Below are positions 27,954 to 42,123 of a stretch of 64,000 nucleotides of DNA, piece by piece. Under the pieces are notes generated by a model. The model saw nothing but the letters and a program-made list of their open reading frames with translations, searched no databases and was not told the DNA's origin. Origin of the DNA: Clostridiales bacterium (GTDB lineage: Bacteria > Bacillota > Clostridia > Christensenellales > JAISNN01); the NCBI GenBank assembly GCA_031276195.1, contig JAISNN010000088.1, forward strand, positions 1 through 64,000, read 5' to 3'. The first letter of the stretch is position 1, and every line of letters begins with the position of its first letter. A program made the position numbers and the translations under genes.

Positions 27954-28877
27954 ATGGACGGATTGAAGCTAAACGCCTTATGCGTAAAAGCGGTCGATTA
28001 TAAGGACAACAAAACATTGCTTACTTTATGCACCATAGAGAAGGGCAAAATCGGCGCGGCGATAAGCGGAGTAAAATCCGAAAAATCAAAGTTACGGTTT
28101 GCGGCTTCTCTTTTGTGCTTCGGCGAATATATTTTTTCGGAGCGCGGCGGCCGCTATACCGTTACGGGCTGCACCCTCACCGACGGTTTTTTTGAGGCGC
28201 GAAACGGCGTCGAACGACTGTATTCCGCGCTGGCGGTAACGGAAATCTTGGACAAAACGACGGAGGAGCATACGGATATTTCCGCGAATATCTATTCCGC
28301 TTTGAACGCCTTGAAAAATATCGCATACGGGGAAAATCCGCTCGGCGCGCTTTTGGAATATACGGTTGCGGCGTCGGCGGAGGCGGGGTACGCTATCGAT
28401 TTGAAAACCTGCGCGGGGTGCGGCGCGCCCGCGGCGGAAGGGTGGTTCGACGCGGAGACGGGAGGCGGAGTTTGCGGGGCGTGCAGAACGCGCAATTCGG
28501 TCGGAATGTCAAAGGGCGCGTTTAGGCTGCTATATAACACGGTATATAACAAAAAGCGCGGTATAGAACCGCGTGAAAACGGCGTTTTAAATTCCGCGAA
28601 TAGCGGCGCGAAAACGCAAAAAAACGACGCTTTGAATTCGGAGGATATCGGCGCGAAAGCGCAAGGGAATGAGGTTTTTAGTTCGGAGAATAGCGGCGCG
28701 AAAACGCGGCGAAACGACGCTTTGAATTCCGGAAACGGCAGTATCGAAATACATAAAAACGACCTTGAAGATAATTTATATGAATGTTTGAGAGTCGTAA
28801 ATTCCTATTTTTCCGCGTGCAACGAGGTTCGTATAAACGCCTTGAATCAGTTGCTGTCTTTGAGATTTTTTAAGTGA
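27954..28877 (+). CDS. recO: DNA repair protein RecO with tandem-repeat insert
   Basis: 307-residue RecO, which loads RecA on SSB-coated DNA with RecR. The N-terminal OB fold (1-80; ALCVKAVDYKDNKTLLTLCT) and zinc cluster (CAGCGAP...CGACR, about residues 151-180) are normal, and the C-terminal helix (NEVRINALNQLLSLRFF) ends the protein. Between YNKKRGIEPR (about 200) and DNLYECLRVV (about 268) is a ~65-residue insert: four 15-residue repeats of NSxNSGAKTxxNDAL, preceded by the palindrome encoding RGIEPR. ATG 27954 follows CGGAG. Separated from era by 19 kb. Confidence 0.9.
   Translation: MDGLKLNALCVKAVDYKDNKTLLTLCTIEKGKIGAAISGVKSEKSKLRFAASLLCFGEYIFSERGGRYTVTGCTLTDGFFEARNGVERLYSALAVTEILDKTTEEHTDISANIYSALNALKNIAYGENPLGALLEYTVAASAEAGYAIDLKTCAGCGAPAAEGWFDAETGGGVCGACRTRNSVGMSKGAFRLLYNTVYNKKRGIEPRENGVLNSANSGAKTQKNDALNSEDIGAKAQGNEVFSSENSGAKTRRNDALNSGNGSIEIHKNDLEDNLYECLRVVNSYFSACNEVRINALNQLLSLRFFK
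28557..28573. repeat. Dispersed palindrome in frame within recO
   Basis: CGCGGTATAGAACCGCG encodes RGIEPR at the left edge of the RecO repeat insert. Identical in design to intergenic copies. Confidence 0.85.
28576..28755 (+). repeat. Four 45-bp in-frame repeats in recO
   Basis: Units of 15 codons (NSANSGAKTQKNDAL, NSEDIGAKAQGNEVF, SSENSGAKTRRNDAL, NSGNGSIEIHKNDLE) with diverging DNA. They lie just before the last helix of RecO. Confidence 0.85.
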
Positions 28878-30635: not shown

Positions 30636-31146
30636 ACCGGATCGTTTTATGATTGTTTTAGAAAATTTTGAATTGCGGAAACGGAAACGATTAACGGTTT
30701 GCAAAAAATCAATACGACGGCAAACGCGCCTTAAATAATTCAAAAATATTTACGGCGTATTTTTATACATTTACGACGCAAAATCGAAACGTTTAAAGTA
30801 TTATTTCATATGAGATACCAAAGGGTTTGCGGAGTTATTACGGCGTTATTTATGTGATATGCCGAAAGGGTTTACGGTATTATCCGTATGAGATATTAAA
30901 AATGTTTACGGCATTATTTTTTTATACGTTTATTACATAATGCGGAAACGTTTACGGTATTATTTCATATGAGATACCAAAGGGTTTGCGGAGTTATTAC
31001 GGCGTTATTTATGTGATATACCGAAAAGGTTTACGGTATTATTCGTATGAGATATTAAAAATGCTTACGGCATTGTTCTTTATATATTTACTATATAATA
31101 CATAGTTTGGTATTGCTTTTTATAAGGAGCGGATAAGGAAATACAT
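30636..31146. repeat. 159-bp duplicated repeat block upstream of the cysteine desulfurase
   Basis: Two copies of a 159-bp block (TATTTCATATGAGATACCAA at 30802 and 30961), each itself made of two ~80-bp halves sharing GTTTACGGTATTAT and ATGAGATA. A TATAAT at 31094-31099 may be a -10 box; the nearest -35-like TTGTTC is only 15 bp away. Confidence 0.8.
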
Positions 31147-32430
31147 ATGATTTATTTGGATTATGCGGCGGATACCCCCGCGGACGAAGCCGTTTTGAAG
31201 GTTTTTTTGGAAACGCAAAGGGAATTTTTTGCCAATCCGAATTCCTCTCACGCCTTAGGCGCGGCGGCGGCGGAAAGGCTGAAAACGGAAATTGAGAAAA
31301 TTAAGAGTTTTTTTGAGGGCGCGGAAGACTATGAATTCATTCCCACAGCGACCGCGAGCGAGGCGAATAATCTCGCTTTGAGGGGAATAGCCGAAAGTTA
31401 TAAAGAAAACGGAAAACATATAATATCCACATATTTGGAGCATCCGTCCGTAGGCGGCGCGCTTACGTATTTGCAGGGGAGGGGCTATGAGGTCGAACTC
31501 GTCCAGGTCAAAAAAGACGGAAAAATCGACCTCGAACACCTCGAATCGCTGATGAGAAAGGATACGGTTTTGGTTTCGGTGTGCGCGGTCGACAGCGAAT
31601 TAGGGACGGTTCAGCCGATCGGGGAGATTGCGAAGATCGTTTCAAAATATCCGTTATGCCGTTTCCACACGGACGCGGCGCAAGCGGTCGGGAGGCTTTC
31701 GGAATACAAAGATTTGACGCATAAAGATAAGGACGGGGATAAAGACTACGGAAATGGGAAATTTCATACGGACGCGGCGCAAGCGGTCGGGAGGCTTTCG
31801 GAATACAAAGACTTGACGCATAAAGATAAGGACGGGGATAAAGGCGGCGGAAAGGATAAGGATGTTAAATTTTCACTTCAAGGTATTTCTTGCCTATCGT
31901 TCGCCGCGCATAAATTTTACGGATTGAACGGCGCGGCGTTTTTGGTTCGTCATAAAAAAACGGTTTTAACCCCTTTGATTCACGGAGGGAGCAACGCTTC
32001 TTTGTATCGCGGGGGAACGCCTTCGCTGCCGCTCGCCGCGTCCGCAAGAGAGGCTATCGAACGCGCGTATTCGGAGGCGGAAACGCGGTATAGAAGCGTC
32101 CTTTTTCTCAACGTTTTTTTGAGAGATGAATTGTCAAAAATCAAAAGGATCAAGATAAACAGTCCGAAAGACGCGTCGCCTTATATCCTCAATATAAGCG
32201 TCGACGGGATCAAGGGCGAAGACACAAAGGACGCGCTCGGCAAGCGCGGAATCTGCGTGTCGGTCAAGTCCGCCTGCTCCGTCAAAAATGTGCCGTCAAA
32301 GGCGGTCTATGCCGTTACGGGCGACAAAAAACGCGCCGCGTCGTCTTTCCGCGTCAGCCTTTCGCACTTGACGGCGCGAAGCGAAGCGGAGGAATTCATA
32401 AGAGCGGTGAGGGAGATTTGCGGCGAATGA
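31147..32430 (+). CDS. Cysteine desulfurase (NifS/IscS family) with a 33-residue duplication in the active-site region
   Basis: 427-residue PLP enzyme that releases sulfur from cysteine for Fe-S clusters and tRNA thiolation. Conserved parts: YLDYAADTP at the N-terminus, NPNSSHALG, the TATASEANNLAL loop, PLP lysine in SFAAHKFYG, catalytic Cys in KSACS, and the SSFRVSLSHLT segment. The PLP-contact segment FHTDAAQAVGRLSEYKDLTH is present twice, 33 residues apart (about residues 173 and 206), joined by Asp/Lys/Gly-rich linkers. Usual length is about 380-390. Only one copy can occupy the site. Neighbours ttcA-like and a CymR-like regulator fit a sulfur role. ATG 31147 follows AAGGAGCGG by about 13 bases. 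Confidence 0.9.
   Translation: MIYLDYAADTPADEAVLKVFLETQREFFANPNSSHALGAAAAERLKTEIEKIKSFFEGAEDYEFIPTATASEANNLALRGIAESYKENGKHIISTYLEHPSVGGALTYLQGRGYEVELVQVKKDGKIDLEHLESLMRKDTVLVSVCAVDSELGTVQPIGEIAKIVSKYPLCRFHTDAAQAVGRLSEYKDLTHKDKDGDKDYGNGKFHTDAAQAVGRLSEYKDLTHKDKDGDKGGGKDKDVKFSLQGISCLSFAAHKFYGLNGAAFLVRHKKTVLTPLIHGGSNASLYRGGTPSLPLAASAREAIERAYSEAETRYRSVLFLNVFLRDELSKIKRIKINSPKDASPYILNISVDGIKGEDTKDALGKRGICVSVKSACSVKNVPSKAVYAVTGDKKRAASSFRVSLSHLTARSEAEEFIRAVREICGE
31663..31860 (+). repeat. 99-bp tandem duplication within the cysteine desulfurase gene
   Basis: Units begin at 31663 and 31762 (99 bp = 33 codons), nearly identical over at least 80 bp. Both keep codons for HTDAAQAVGRLSEYKDL, so an essential motif is duplicated rather than a linker. 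Confidence 0.95.
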
Positions 32431-32663: not shown

Positions 32664-33497
32664 ATGGAAAGATACGAACAAATCGAAAGAAGTATAATCA
32701 CCACATACCGGGCGCATATTTGGAAAAAATTCGTCGAGGCGGTCAACGAATACCGATTGATCAAAAACGGCGATAAAATCGCCGTCTGCATTTCGGGCGG
32801 CAAGGATTCTATGCTTATGGCGAAGTGCTTTCAGGAATTGAAAAAACACGGAAAAAATAACTTCGAGGCGGTCTATCTCGTTATGGATCCCGGCTATAAC
32901 GAAATCAACCGCTTGACGATAGAAAATAACGCCAAACTTTTGAACATTCCGGTCACGGTATTCGATTCGGATATTTTTGAGGCGGTCGCGTCCGTCGACA
33001 AAACGCCGTGTTATCTTTGCGCGAGAATGAGACGCGGCTGTCTGTACTCGAAAGCGAAAGAATTGGGATGCAACAAAATCGCGCTCGGACATCATTTCGA
33101 CGACGTGATCGAAACGGTTATGATGGGTATTTTGTATAACGGACAGATTCAATCGATGATGCCGAAACTGCATAGCGACAATTTCGAGGGGATGGAGTTG
33201 ATCCGTCCGCTGTATAAGGTCAAGGAGCGCGACATAATAAATTGGAAAAATTATAACGACCTGAATTTCATTCAATGCGCCTGCCGCTTCACGGAGAACT
33301 GCACGGTTTGCGACAACGGGGGAGGCGGTTCGAAAAGACAGGAAATGAAATATCTTATTAAGACATTGAGAAAAAACAATCCGAACGCCGATTTAAATAT
33401 TTTTAACAGTATGTATAATATCAATCTCGATACGGCGATAGGGTATAAAAAGGACGGCATAAGACACGGATTTTTAGACGGATATGAGGAGAGTTGA
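32664..33497 (+). CDS. TtcA-like PP-loop tRNA thiolation enzyme
   Basis: 277-residue ATP-pyrophosphatase of the TtcA/TilS superfamily, likely tRNA 2-thiocytidine synthesis. The PP-loop is ISGGKDSMLMAK (about residues 43-54); CYLCARMRRG (about 115-124) provides the central CxxC that binds an Fe-S cluster in TtcA; ALGHHFDD and the C-terminal C...C pair (CTVCDNG) are also present. ATG 32664 follows AAAGGTGAAAA. The cysteine desulfurase upstream is a plausible sulfur donor. Its last ~100 bp are echoed downstream. Confidence 0.87.
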   Translation: MERYEQIERSIITTYRAHIWKKFVEAVNEYRLIKNGDKIAVCISGGKDSMLMAKCFQELKKHGKNNFEAVYLVMDPGYNEINRLTIENNAKLLNIPVTVFDSDIFEAVASVDKTPCYLCARMRRGCLYSKAKELGCNKIALGHHFDDVIETVMMGILYNGQIQSMMPKLHSDNFEGMELIRPLYKVKERDIINWKNYNDLNFIQCACRFTENCTVCDNGGGGSKRQEMKYLIKTLRKNNPNADLNIFNSMYNINLDTAIGYKKDGIRHGFLDGYEES

Positions 33498-33499
33498 TC

Positions 33500-33612
33500 G
33501 CCGCTTTAAATATTTTTAACGGTATGTATAATATCAATCCCGATACGGCGATAGGGTATAAAAAGGACGGCATAAGGCACAAATTTTTGGACGGATATGA
33601 GGAGAGTTGATC
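33500..33612 (+). repeat. Echo of the ttcA-like gene 3' end
   Basis: About 110 bp repeat the end of the gene (from TTTAAATATTTTTAAC through GAGGAGAGTTGATCGCC) at an offset of 113 bp, with about 90 percent identity by eye. The copy ends nine bases before the convergent regulator gene. Confidence 0.92.
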
Positions 33613-33620
33613 GCCGGTCG

Positions 33621-34372: not shown

Positions 34373-35698
34373 ATGAATGAATTAACGCTGAAAAACGTCA
34401 AAAAAAAGTATCTCTACGGAGCAAACGCCCTGAACGGGGTGAGTTTTTCTCTGAAAAAAAACGAACGCTTGACGCTGTTCGGCGGCGGCGGCGCGGGGAA
34501 AACAACTCTCTTGAAGGCCGTTGCGGGATTGACGGACTTCGATGGGGAAATTCTTCTCGACGGGGTTGACATACGCGGAATTCCTCTTAAAAAGAGGGGT
34601 ATTTCGATGACCTTTCCCGACGCGTTTAAGCCGCGGAAAAGCGTCTATGAAAACCTCCGTTTTTCCTTTGAAATCCGCGGTATAGAAGGGAAAATTTTTG
34701 AGGAAAAATTGCGCGAAATAGACGGAATTTTCGGTATAGGATATCTGTACTTTTTTAAGTTTAAAGATCTAAACCAAAGGCAGAAAGCCGTCGTTACCGC
34801 CGTGCGCTGCCTTATACGCGAAGCGGAATTGTATATCCTCGACAATCCGTTAAAGGGCTTGCCAAAAGAAGAAAAGCGTGATTTTCTATTGAAAATGTTG
34901 ACCTATTTAAAGGGGCGCGGTACGCTGATCTATGCGACGGACGACCTCGGCGAGGCGCGTTTTTTGAATTTTTTCAATGTCATTTTGGATTGCGGATATG
35001 TGAGCGGAAAGGGCTTTTTTTCCGAACTGTATTTTAAACCGCGCGAACTTTCGGTTTGCCGCCTTTTGGGAATGAACGTCTTTGCGGACGGGGAGGAATA
35101 TGCCGTCGTGAAACCCGAGAATTTGGAATTTGAGCCGTATAGCCTTGAACGGCTTAGTAAGGAGAAAGAGGAGAACGACGGGCGCGGCCGCCGCGATGAA
35201 AACGGCTTAAAAGATGATTATAACGGAGAAACGGGCGCGTTTTTTTGCGGTTCGGTTGGAAATGCGGCGGAAGATGAGAGCGGTTTGAGCGGTGATGATA
35301 GTGGGGAAACGGACGCGGTTTTTTGCGGTTCGGTTGGAAATGCGGCGGAAGATGAGAGCGGTTTGAGCGGTGATGAGAACGGGGAAACGGACGCGGTTTT
35401 TCGCGGTTCGGTTGGAAATAAGACGGGAAATGAGATCGGTCGCGGAAAAAAAACAGACGGGAATTTTAAAAGTTTATGCGCGGAGGCGGTGTTGATCGGG
35501 ATCGAGAGCGGTTTTATGTGTGAGGTATATCATTTCGTTGCGGAAAGAGAGCCGCGGGAGTTTTTTTGCGCGGCGCGTTCCTTTTCTCCCGAAAACGGCG
35601 GATCTATACCGCCGAAAATCGGTGAAAAATACGCGCTTTTTTATGACGAAACGAAGGCTTTACGATATAATAAAGCGGATGAAAAGGCGATAGATTGA
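34373..35698 (+). CDS. Degenerate ABC transporter ATP-binding protein (MalK-like)
   Basis: 441 residues. Walker A (GGGGAGKTTLL, about 38-48) is intact, but other ABC motifs are not: the Q-loop reads ISMTFPDAFKP (Pro for Gln), the LSGGQ signature is replaced by LNQRQ, the Walker B glutamate is Asn (LYILDNPLKGL) and the switch His is Asp (YATDDLGEA). After the nucleotide-binding domain, a TOBE-like tail is split by ~100 residues of acidic 26-residue repeats (GETDAVFCGSVGNAAEDESGLSGD). ATP hydrolysis is doubtful; the frame is intact, so it is kept. No permease lies nearby. ATG 34373 has weak Shine-Dalgarno and sits in triplicated 5' sequence. Confidence 0.8.
   Translation: MNELTLKNVKKKYLYGANALNGVSFSLKKNERLTLFGGGGAGKTTLLKAVAGLTDFDGEILLDGVDIRGIPLKKRGISMTFPDAFKPRKSVYENLRFSFEIRGIEGKIFEEKLREIDGIFGIGYLYFFKFKDLNQRQKAVVTAVRCLIREAELYILDNPLKGLPKEEKRDFLLKMLTYLKGRGTLIYATDDLGEARFLNFFNVILDCGYVSGKGFFSELYFKPRELSVCRLLGMNVFADGEEYAVVKPENLEFEPYSLERLSKEKEENDGRGRRDENGLKDDYNGETGAFFCGSVGNAAEDESGLSGDDSGETDAVFCGSVGNAAEDESGLSGDENGETDAVFRGSVGNKTGNEIGRGKKTDGNFKSLCAEAVLIGIESGFMCEVYHFVAEREPREFFCAARSFSPENGGSIPPKIGEKYALFYDETKALRYNKADEKAID
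35211..35450 (+). repeat. Three 78-bp in-frame repeats in the ABC gene
   Basis: TTCGGTTGGA occurs at 35251, 35329 and 35407: period 78 bp = 26 codons. The first two units are nearly identical, the third diverged. Confidence 0.9.
35596..35614. repeat. Dispersed palindrome in frame near the ABC gene 3' end
   Basis: CGGCGGATCTATACCGCCG encodes GGSIPP; arms of six bases flank a 7-base centre matching the GATCTATA orientation of other copies. Confidence 0.75.
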
Positions 35699-39400: not shown

Positions 39401-42123
39401 GCGTAACTTTCAAAAAAGCGGGCGGCGACGGCGCGGAAGTTACGGTTTCGTTTAAGATAATTTCCTTTAAATATGCAAGCGCGAACGCGGGAAAAGACAT
39501 AGAGGTTTCGGGGACGGTCGAATTGAGCGACGAGGATAAAGATTTTTATCATTTTGCCGTCGATAATGAAAAAGTGCAGTCGATCGATATAACCGCGAAG
39601 GCGGAAATCACCCCGAAAGAGTTGACGCTGACGGGCGTAACCGCGTCCGATAAGGTGTACGACGGAACGGCGGAAGTAACGACGCTGACGGGAGGAACGA
39701 TAGAGGGGGTCTTGGACGGCGATACGGTGGACTTTGAATTGTCGGACGGAACGACGGAAAATCGAAAGACGGGAGAGAATAAAAAGGTAACGTATAAGGC
39801 GGTATTGAGCGGAGAGGACGCCGGAAATTATACGGTAAAAAACCAAAACGAAGTCAAGATCAATATCACCGCAAAAGAAGTAGATATAACGGGATTGTAC
39901 GCCGATAATATGACGTATAACGGAAGTACGGAAGTTAAAATCTTAACCGATAAGGTAAAAATCTCGGGATTAGAAACGGTCGATAACGGAAAGGTAAGCG
40001 TCGAAGTAAAGAACGCAAAAGTTTCAAATAAGAACGTCGGAGACGGGAAAGCCGTAACGTATACGGTCAATTTGACGGGGGACGAAGCGGAGAACTACAA
40101 GATTAAAAACCAAAACGAAGTCAAGATCAATATCACAGCAAAAGAAGTAGATATAACGGGATTGTATGCCGATAATATGACGTACAACGGAAGTACGGAA
40201 GTTAAGATCTTGACCGATAAAGTAAAAATCTCGGGCTTGGAAACGGTCGATAACGGAAAGGTAACGATCGAAGTAAAGAACGCGAAAGTTTCAAATAAGA
40301 ACGTCGGAGACGGAAAGGTCGTAACGTATGCCGTTAGTTTGACGGGGGACGAAGCGGAGAATTACAAGATTAAAAACCAAAACGAAGTCAAGATCAATAT
40401 CACAAAAAAAGAATTGACGATAGCGGGAATCAAGGCGGTTGACAGAACCTATAACGGCGAAAAAACGGTCGCTTTGGATCTTAGCGGAATGGAGGTAAAA
40501 GGGCTTATCGAGGGCGACGAGGTTACGGTTTCGGCGGATACGTTCGGGTACGTTGAAAGCGCGGAGGTCGGGAGCGGCAAAAAAGTTGCGGTCGGATACG
40601 AAGTTTCGGGCGCGGACAAGGAAAACTACACCTTTGCCGATATCGGTTACGTGACGGTGAATATCACCGCCGCCCCCGCCGAACCGGAAAACCCCGAAAA
40701 TCCCGAAAACCCCGAAAATCCGGAAAATCCCGAAAATCCTGAAAACCCCGAAAATCCCGAAAATCCCGAAAACCCGGAAAATCCCGAAAAAACGATCGAC
40801 GGAACTAAGGAAGCCGAAATCGACGAATTTTTGAAAAAATACGGCGGCAATACGGCGGAATTGGTTTACGACGCGAAAGACCATGCGAACGATCTTAACG
40901 GTAATTTGACCGAAATCAAAAAGATTGAGGGAATCGCGGACGCGGAGTTAGTCATAGAGCAAGGCGGCGCGGTTGTAAGCGCGATCAAAAACGCGGGAAC
41001 GTATACCCTGACCTTGACGATAAAGACAATTACGGGCGAAAAATCGGGCTGGACTTTCAATGACAAAACGACGGAAAAGGCGGTAACTTGGACGGTTCGG
41101 ATCAAAAAAGCGGCGGTAACCGTAACGGTCGAAGCCGATAACAGAGAGTACGACGGAACGAATACGGTGAAAATTCATATCGATAAAGATAAGATTTCGG
41201 GAATACTCGGAAGCGACGATTTGACTATCACCGCGGAAACGGGAACAACGGCGGACGCGGGCGTGGGTAAGGACAAGCCGTTCACGCCGAACGCGGTCAT
41301 AACGGGAGCGGACAAAGACAATTATGAAATAGTCTTTAAAGGCGCGACGGTTACGATCAAGGCGACGAATACGGAAAATCCGCAGCCCGGCGAAAAACCG
41401 TATGTCATCGGCGGAGAGGTGATCGAAGCCGGGATCGAAGCCGCCGAAACGGAAAACGCTCTCAAAGCGGATTACGACGGAGCGGCGCATACGGACGAAG
41501 CGTTGGAGGGCTTACTCGGCGGATTGAAAGGTATCGGCGGAATCGCGGATGCGGTTGTCAAGGGCTACAAAAAAGCGGACGGAAACGCGGTTGACGCGAT
41601 GAAAGACGCGGGAACTTACACCGTCGAGATCGAATTGACCGCCGACGAAAAAGCGGAAGCGCCCGCGTATGCTTGGGCGTTTGCGGACGGCGAAAAGACT
41701 TATACCGTATATGTAACCTATACGATCGGCAAGATTAAGTTGACGGTGAAGGGTATAACGGCGGTTGACAGAGTGTACGACGGGACGATGAAGGTTGATT
41801 TGAACACGGACGGAATGACGATCGAAGGGTGGGCGACGGATGACGACGAAGCAAAATTCACCCTTATGATCGCGCCGAAAGGAACGGTCGGCAGCGCGGA
41901 CGCGGGAACGGACAAAACCGTTACGTTAGACATAAGCGGAACCGCGCTCGGAAACTACGTCGTCGAGTATGCCCCCGTTACGGTAAACATTCTTGCCGCG
42001 CCCGAAGAAGAAGGGCTTGGCTCTCTATGGAGTTTATTCCTGCTCGCATCGTTTACGGGTTTTGCCGTGTATTGCTTGTTTGCGTATATCGCCCAAAAGA
42101 GAGAGGTGAAGAGAAGAAGGTAA
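36478..42123 (+). CDS. Giant surface protein with beta-helix-like, YDG/MBG-type and proline-rich repeats
   Basis: 1881 residues. An N-terminal signal or membrane segment (about 14-35) opens the protein. Residues ~50-900 are Gly/Ser/Thr/Val-rich with many short strands (KVSAETAEG, GAVFITDGGKV), suggestive of a right-handed beta-helix. From ~955 come several YDG-type modules (KVYDGTAEVTTLTGG, MTYNGSTEV, TYNGEKTV), two of them an almost exact 89-residue duplication. An (E/P)-N-P-E-N repeat hinge lies at ~1401-1437, followed by three more MBG/YDG-like modules. A C-terminal membrane segment (~1845-1868) and KREVKRRR anchor it; there is no LPXTG. An adhesin-like role is inferred. GGAGAG precedes ATG 36478. 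Confidence 0.85.
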   Translation: MKNFVAKTRTRLIKYITVIAAIVLTGGLGSLFTAGQLSGEGKFIGGSARENTVSAAKVNVDVPTFRIDNIEGTGANLRIGVTLVKVTLKMNADSEDYADGEITAIKDSQETIANVSHTGLWTAFAAKLGYVKDVGAFWEDEKPTGIMFGDGTTPLSIPEWGKKVPFFTMNPKNKKDVIIFGQAAAASADNNLETEPLIYYDPVSAAGLADLYISKSVKLTSRLTSVLKIGGTGVGKICINGELKKIEDAPKNVNPVVEVATSASMTQFSCGAKIENQGSGYGVSFTGKFRGSAPTFTGSIITGIEGEETGDAGLYFGAECRFTEAYLNAAVIKNIGVKKEAYAAEFNGRPKVTVGNGSLIESGTAVTLKINLDSTPSLLNFKEELIVKGKSRIVNTNESDGKALLVDKGRVHIQNEGTTVESRGEKSNTIYLKNQAENVAILQVKVSDGALVKGKGTVVYADTEKLGAGSGGTIGEECDNGVAVGSGGRIETEGNGADNAAVFLKNGAAARIIDGSVVSKGVSSCIRMENNNSASKIVGGKSEIVNEYTGDSAANYMIYIKESPDLILNIEGASVVSKAKDGGGIYLDGAALSIVAEARLNANIGKYPAVYLKNNARILVKNGHITGIVQSGADADLRGVIVNDSERKGTADDKDGAVFITDGGKVSAETAEGASLFVPAVYSTDGTVLILNGDADNGITVTAKTNADKMYKGTIMLDGENASLYIETKQTSSAVVSEGTGPLIYNKRGNAADYGGVYGNAVGIKSGIVGSGTDGERVTIETVCGGVYVAPGASVGGYCGKNAEKGIIFAYGSSEIIVEGTVKSEKDYDDGANAVYLSAGTRLHLKGAGTAKIQGAINIAEDGGASNRTMSADFKPSESGGKLTFAVRDRDARGKFILFYAPANQSLSTDHFAAYKITKKDKMKLDVKSVPNGDETGKNDIAVDIETEEIKIEKIVISSKTYDKSDDVLDTQTVSVTFKKAGGDGAEVTVSFKIISFKYASANAGKDIEVSGTVELSDEDKDFYHFAVDNEKVQSIDITAKAEITPKELTLTGVTASDKVYDGTAEVTTLTGGTIEGVLDGDTVDFELSDGTTENRKTGENKKVTYKAVLSGEDAGNYTVKNQNEVKINITAKEVDITGLYADNMTYNGSTEVKILTDKVKISGLETVDNGKVSVEVKNAKVSNKNVGDGKAVTYTVNLTGDEAENYKIKNQNEVKINITAKEVDITGLYADNMTYNGSTEVKILTDKVKISGLETVDNGKVTIEVKNAKVSNKNVGDGKVVTYAVSLTGDEAENYKIKNQNEVKINITKKELTIAGIKAVDRTYNGEKTVALDLSGMEVKGLIEGDEVTVSADTFGYVESAEVGSGKKVAVGYEVSGADKENYTFADIGYVTVNITAAPAEPENPENPENPENPENPENPENPENPENPENPENPEKTIDGTKEAEIDEFLKKYGGNTAELVYDAKDHANDLNGNLTEIKKIEGIADAELVIEQGGAVVSAIKNAGTYTLTLTIKTITGEKSGWTFNDKTTEKAVTWTVRIKKAAVTVTVEADNREYDGTNTVKIHIDKDKISGILGSDDLTITAETGTTADAGVGKDKPFTPNAVITGADKDNYEIVFKGATVTIKATNTENPQPGEKPYVIGGEVIEAGIEAAETENALKADYDGAAHTDEALEGLLGGLKGIGGIADAVVKGYKKADGNAVDAMKDAGTYTVEIELTADEKAEAPAYAWAFADGEKTYTVYVTYTIGKIKLTVKGITAVDRVYDGTMKVDLNTDGMTIEGWATDDDEAKFTLMIAPKGTVGSADAGTDKTVTLDISGTALGNYVVEYAPVTVNILAAPEEEGLGSLWSLFLLASFTGFAVYCLFAYIAQKREVKRRR
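39841..40374 (+). repeat. 267-bp tandem duplication in the surface protein gene
   Basis: AACCAAAACGAAGTCAAGAT occurs at 39841, 40108 and 40375: two 267-bp units (89 codons each) of near-identical sequence encoding consecutive YDG-like modules. Confidence 0.95.
40681..40790 (+). repeat. ENP repeat hinge
   Basis: About a dozen 9-bp units (GAAAATCCC type) encode ENPENPENP. Synonymous third-base variation among units suggests it is not a recent expansion. Confidence 0.9.

Follow-up and report, generated by a model that had tools for sequence, protein, structure and literature searches.

A 99-bp segment of the desulfurase gene at 31147-32430 is tandemly duplicated in frame, doubling the strand that carries two PLP-contacting residues of the encoded enzyme. 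The duplication is not special to this gene: such duplications fill the genome, here called G000. The enzyme feature itself is ordinary, and the density of tandem arrays throughout the genome is unusual. Hereafter ‘the window’ refers to the whole 64,000-nucleotide stretch that was analysed, in which the duplication lies among the following features.

30762..31099, no strand assigned: intergenic tandem array 5′ of the desulfurase gene (TRF, period 159, 2.1 copies, 88%)
31147..32430, + strand: NifS/IscS-like cysteine desulfurase gene, 427 aa, with the duplication (Aminotran_5 and NifS/IscS profile matches)
31663..31761, + strand: copy 1 of the 99-bp unit, with Asp176 and Gln179 (repeat search, TRF)
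31762..31853, + strand: copy 2 of the 99-bp unit, with Asp209 and Gln212 (repeat search, TRF)

The first-pass annotation had described a near-identical 99-bp tandem duplication at 31663-31860, and both the repeat search and TRF bear it out. The former pairs 31663-31754 with 31762-31853 at a spacing of 99 and 93% identity, and the latter reports an array at 31669-31853 with a period of 99 and a score of 342. Within a 76-nt core (31669-31744 and 31768-31843) there is a single mismatch, as the remaining differences lie at the edges, and the longest exact run common to both copies is 44 nt. Such a match far exceeds what chance would give. The ORF reads through both copies in frame, and the doubled peptide is FHTDAAQAVGRLSEYKDLTHKDKDGDK. 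Three codon differences between the copies are synonymous (TTC/TTT, CAC/CAT, and GAT/GAC), and three are non-synonymous, all at the 3′ edge. The synonymous changes had been taken to argue against a sequencing duplicate, which is reasonable, although the genome-wide frame bias described below is much stronger evidence.

The protein matches Pfam Aminotran_5 in two separate stretches (2.4e-46, 158.9 bits against a cut-off of 21.5), which places the domain in the class V aminotransferase fold. On the other hand, the NCBIfam equivalog cut-offs are missed (225 of 531 bits for NifS and 209 of 643 for IscS), and the score with the DndA model is also below its cut-off. Because the equivalog cut-offs are missed, with the insert depressing the score, the protein is filed solely as NifS/IscS-like; the earlier identification as a NifS-like desulfurase is borne out. 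Alignment to the Thermotoga maritima NifS-like protein (PDB 1ecx) stops at residue 184 and restarts at 242.

All residues required of a desulfurase are present (K256, C377, H99, D176/D209, and Q179/Q212), and His99, Asp176, Gln179, Lys256, and Cys377 are invariant in a 25-sequence alignment. In the NifS/IscS family, Asp and Gln touch the PLP ring, the PLP-stacking His is a separate, earlier residue, Lys binds PLP, and Cys bears the persulfide. We take His99 to be the stacking His of this protein. Since it lies earlier, and since His99, Lys256, and Cys377 are each single, only the Asp/Gln strand is doubled. The claim that the His, Asp, and Gln contacts are duplicated together thus holds for Asp and Gln, but not for His, whereas the PLP Lys and catalytic Cys are single as had been claimed.

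The duplication is located in an extra loop of ~56 residues. Same-genus orthologues in G002, G003, and G004 (370, 384, and 374 residues) lack the insert, and identity to relatives is 64–68%. The nearest orthologue, from the sister genome G005 (64% identity), has an unrelated Gly/Asp/Ser-rich insert of ~50 residues at exactly the same loop; no further member of the genus has an insert there. The loop insert is therefore probably older than the duplication, which would later have doubled the strand and part of a pre-existing insert. The 99-bp unit is mainly lineage-specific hydrophilic loop insert that extends back into the Asp/Gln motif, and it takes in core strand, unlike most other inserts of this genome. 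We rejected an active-site duplication with its own function as the default reading, since the unit is part of a lineage-specific variable loop insert.

Tandem arrays with a period of at least 20 were sampled in 234 kb elsewhere in G000, a metagenome-derived assembly of 93 contigs with ~46% GC, in addition to the window, and in five same-genus genomes (241 kb together). The window itself gives 72 TRF rows, some overlapping. In the 234-kb sample, array density is 5.7 per 10 kb, and arrays cover 10.5% of the bases, or 28.8% outside long ORFs. The same-genus genomes show 0–1.05 arrays per 10 kb and 0–0.7% of bases, values that rest on samples and may be lowered by repeat collapse, which can happen in short-read assemblies, tandem repeats being known to cause assembly errors (PMC6868369). 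In other families of the order, most stretches are near zero, with a few at 1–3% of bases. Near-identical arrays are abundant in G000 alone among the genomes sampled. Most arrays of any identity are simple, 95 of 167 having fewer than 2.6 copies.

The period is divisible by three in 40 of 48 coding arrays and in 33 of 100 non-coding arrays (Fisher p = 7e-9). Because the bias is confined to coding DNA and assembly errors are frame-blind, it argues strongly for genuine duplications that selection has filtered. Incidentally, long ORFs make up a low share of bases (66%) in the G005 sample (L071–L074), yet few arrays are detectable; its repeats are possibly older and eroded. The pattern is unreported in this group as far as our partial coverage of the literature goes. 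A scan of viral contigs returned nothing, and one of genome contigs returned one distant match.

Inserts occur in AroA, AroB, MetRS, LspA, DnaX, RecO, an ABC ATPase, RecJ, MutL, and PolA of G000. The six that were measured are hydrophilic, with N, G, E, K, D, S, and R making up 65–83% of residues. Two of the genes lie in the window.

28576..28729, + strand: 45-bp in-frame repeats within recO
35215..35440, + strand: 78-bp in-frame repeats within the ABC ATPase gene

Also in the window, a 1881-aa ORF contains a 267-bp in-frame repeat (39838-40413, 93%). The open frames of AroB are 352–358 aa in G001–G004 versus 439 in G000 and 447 in G005, and those of AroA are 423–452 versus 638 and 586, respectively, indicating that the expansion is partly common to G000 and G005. 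Counting insertions by reciprocal best hits across the sampled stretches yielded just 11 and 14 pairs, too few for use.

Replication and repair proteins show various insertions. RecJ (L096, G000:C86:14500-18000) has an insert of more than 100 residues, 33% Asn, that is absent from G005. PolA (L204, G000:C13:29400-32600) has a Gly-rich repeat insert between its 5′-nuclease and polymerase parts; PolA of G005 has different inserts nearby, and that of G002 and G003 has none. In the linker of MutL (L208, G000:C82:22000-27500), a degenerate ~10-residue repeat resembling DGENGQNIGEK runs over a long stretch, and the adjoining MutS has no obvious insert.

G000 has PolA with a 5′-nuclease domain (E = 8.6e-57, conserved motifs retained), MutS, MutL, RecJ, XseA, SbcD, and a RecG-like helicase. 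Loss of mismatch repair, RecJ, XseA, SbcD, RecG, or the PolA 5′ nuclease was considered as the cause of the duplications and rejected on the presence of the genes. Likewise, the presence of the PolA domain speaks against a mutator of the FEN1/PolA-deficient kind, which is defined by loss of the 5′ flap nuclease. As to microhomology at the junctions, the picture is mixed: 7 of 18 simple arrays extend at least 3 nt past two copies, and 9 of 18 show no extension. The simple arrays are accounted for by short tandem duplications that occur frequently and then undergo selection.

Inserts in PolA, MutL, RecJ, RecO, and DnaX themselves are suggestive, but prove nothing. We conceived that the species could be a natural tandem-duplication mutator, owing to a change in replication or repair partly common to G005. 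As these five proteins are themselves lengthened by inserts, the process might feed on itself and drive the proteome toward Plasmodium-like loop inserts. We offer this idea as speculation with a low chance of being right.

The gene following the desulfurase also ends in a tandem duplication.

32664..33497, + strand: TtcA-like PP-loop gene (PRK10696 TtcA, 5.9e-58, under the cut-off)
33386..33616, + strand: 113-bp tandem duplication (94%) covering the 3′ terminus of the TtcA-like gene with its stop codon

The second of the two copies within 33386-33616 is left untranslated after the stop codon. Because the gene end is copied together with its stop, a period that is not a multiple of three leaves the frame unharmed. 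The pair of desulfurase and TtcA-like genes is kept in G002, G003, and G005, and also in G022 of another family.

Other desulfurases were found when the genome was searched for a second one, as the first-pass annotation had proposed. An intact IscS adjoins IscU and is preceded by an Rrf2 regulator (L001); L002 holds a second NifS-like gene; and a desulfurase of the TIGR01977 type with 500 aa (L003, 1498-3000) has counterparts with open frames of 384–434 in relatives. The TIGR01977-type desulfurase has an in-frame 45-bp repeat insert of its own, at a different loop. The intact IscS beside IscU indicates that the duplicated desulfurase is accessory. It had been reasoned that another intact iscS would make this enzyme dispensable, which is the case with regard to the housekeeping need. 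TtcA needs a desulfurase, and together with the gene neighbourhood this suggests that the accessory desulfurase is probably the sulfur donor to the adjoining TtcA-like enzyme for tRNA thiolation.

Taken together, we are fairly confident of the following account. Stretches of tens to hundreds of bases would often be duplicated in tandem throughout the genome, and within genes the surviving duplications would be those that keep the frame and fall in exposed loops. In the desulfurase, a hydrophilic insert would have come first, separating the strand that contacts PLP (HTDAAQAVGR) from the one that leads to the PLP lysine. Insert and PLP-contact strand would subsequently have been doubled by a 99-bp in-frame duplication that extended back into that strand. 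The protein would most likely adopt a normal desulfurase fold in which one HTDAAQ copy is used, while the remaining copy, together with the charged linkers, forms a disordered loop, and it would probably serve in accessory sulfur donation to the neighbouring TtcA-like enzyme.

Either copy could enter the core. In register A, copy 1 is in use and a loop of ~56 residues follows; in register B, copy 2 is in use with 33 extra residues before it and ~23 after it. The first-pass annotation had foreseen either a looped-out segment or two alternative registers, and both are possible, as chain connectivity is kept in each. It had also called for structure prediction of the packed copy. A single AlphaFold2 model (mean pLDDT of 88.3) puts copy 2 in the core, with residues 205–209 as the core strand, but its input alignment favoured copy 2, so that the model does not settle the register. 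Core pLDDT is above 90, and the lowest blocks (46–60) are in copy 1 and the linkers, which suggests that the core would tolerate the insert. The protein could even exist in two interchangeable forms, with either HTDAAQ copy entering the sheet and with loop lengths and perhaps activity differing. Engineered tandem repeats in T4 lysozyme display such ambiguity. MAFFT aligns every relative to copy 1 or every relative to copy 2 according to the subset and options chosen, so that sequence does not discriminate between the registers. However, the only model obtained leans to copy 2, the doubled state shows no sign of conservation or use, and the orthologues lack the duplication. Thus, we consider two interchangeable forms unlikely.

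Inactivation of the enzyme by the duplication, with the gene decaying while other desulfurases cover the need, would fit the intact IscS beside IscU, the further desulfurases in the genome, and the inclusion of core strand in the doubled segment. Yet all 427 codons are open, every catalytic residue is kept, identity stays at 64–68%, and the gene pair is conserved, which makes decay distinctly improbable. An artefact of assembly or strain mixing might be suspected in a metagenome-derived genome of 93 contigs, given the proneness of tandem repeats to assembly error (PMC6868369). We regard it as very improbable, because the copies differ, the frame is kept, the multiple-of-three bias appears only in coding arrays, and collapse reduces copy number and could not make inserts that relatives lack. 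Insertion of a mobile element is hardly credible either, even though in-frame inserts across many unrelated housekeeping genes recall Rickettsia palindromic elements (PMC10969869). The unit has no inverted repeat of at least 10 nt in 31640-31880, no copy was found beyond the tandem pair in the window and sampled contigs (~300 kb), and the inserts are tandem and differ from gene to gene.

Taken singly, the duplication amounts to a natural experiment on what an enzyme does with a core strand present in two identical versions. Arrays take up ~10% of sampled bases and inserts are found in many core enzymes, mostly lacking in same-genus relatives. If so, a bacterium would allow a direct test of how low-complexity inserts in conserved proteins originate and are tolerated. 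Seen as a sign of a process acting genome-wide, the duplication is more interesting than the first-pass annotation held.

Among known systems, the group I NifS-like protein of T. maritima (1ecx) shares the fold, the PLP Lys, the catalytic Cys, and the Asp/Gln and His positions. The 427-aa protein differs from the NifS/IscS type in its 56-residue insert and doubled Asp/Gln strand, in scoring under the NifS and IscS equivalog cut-offs, and in being paired with a TtcA-like gene. Yeast without the flap nuclease Rad27/FEN1 accumulates tandem duplications of tens to ~100 bp, as ABA to ABABA (PMC5677150). The spectrum of short tandem duplications is alike in G000, but G000 has PolA with a 5′-nuclease domain, and many of its units exceed 100 bp. 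Rickettsia palindromic elements are in-frame palindromic inserts in unrelated housekeeping genes (PMC10969869); those of G000 are likewise in frame in unrelated housekeeping genes, but are tandem, non-palindromic, and without a common sequence. In-frame repeats within genes also occur in Legionella pneumophila, where the whole genome has 39 significant intragenic repeats, all with lengths divisible by 3 (PMC2639597). G000 differs in having arrays over ~10% of sampled bases and repeats within core enzymes of metabolism and replication, although software and thresholds differ. Enzymes of Plasmodium falciparum carry low-complexity inserts, Asn-rich or charged, in loops (PMC11260460, PMC12106546), and G000 likewise has Asn-rich or charged loop inserts in conserved enzymes, for example RecJ. 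G000 is bacterial, has ~46% GC, and shows many recent, longer tandem units rather than homopolymer-like runs; nevertheless, by the look of the proteins, it resembles the Plasmodium inserts most among the known kinds.
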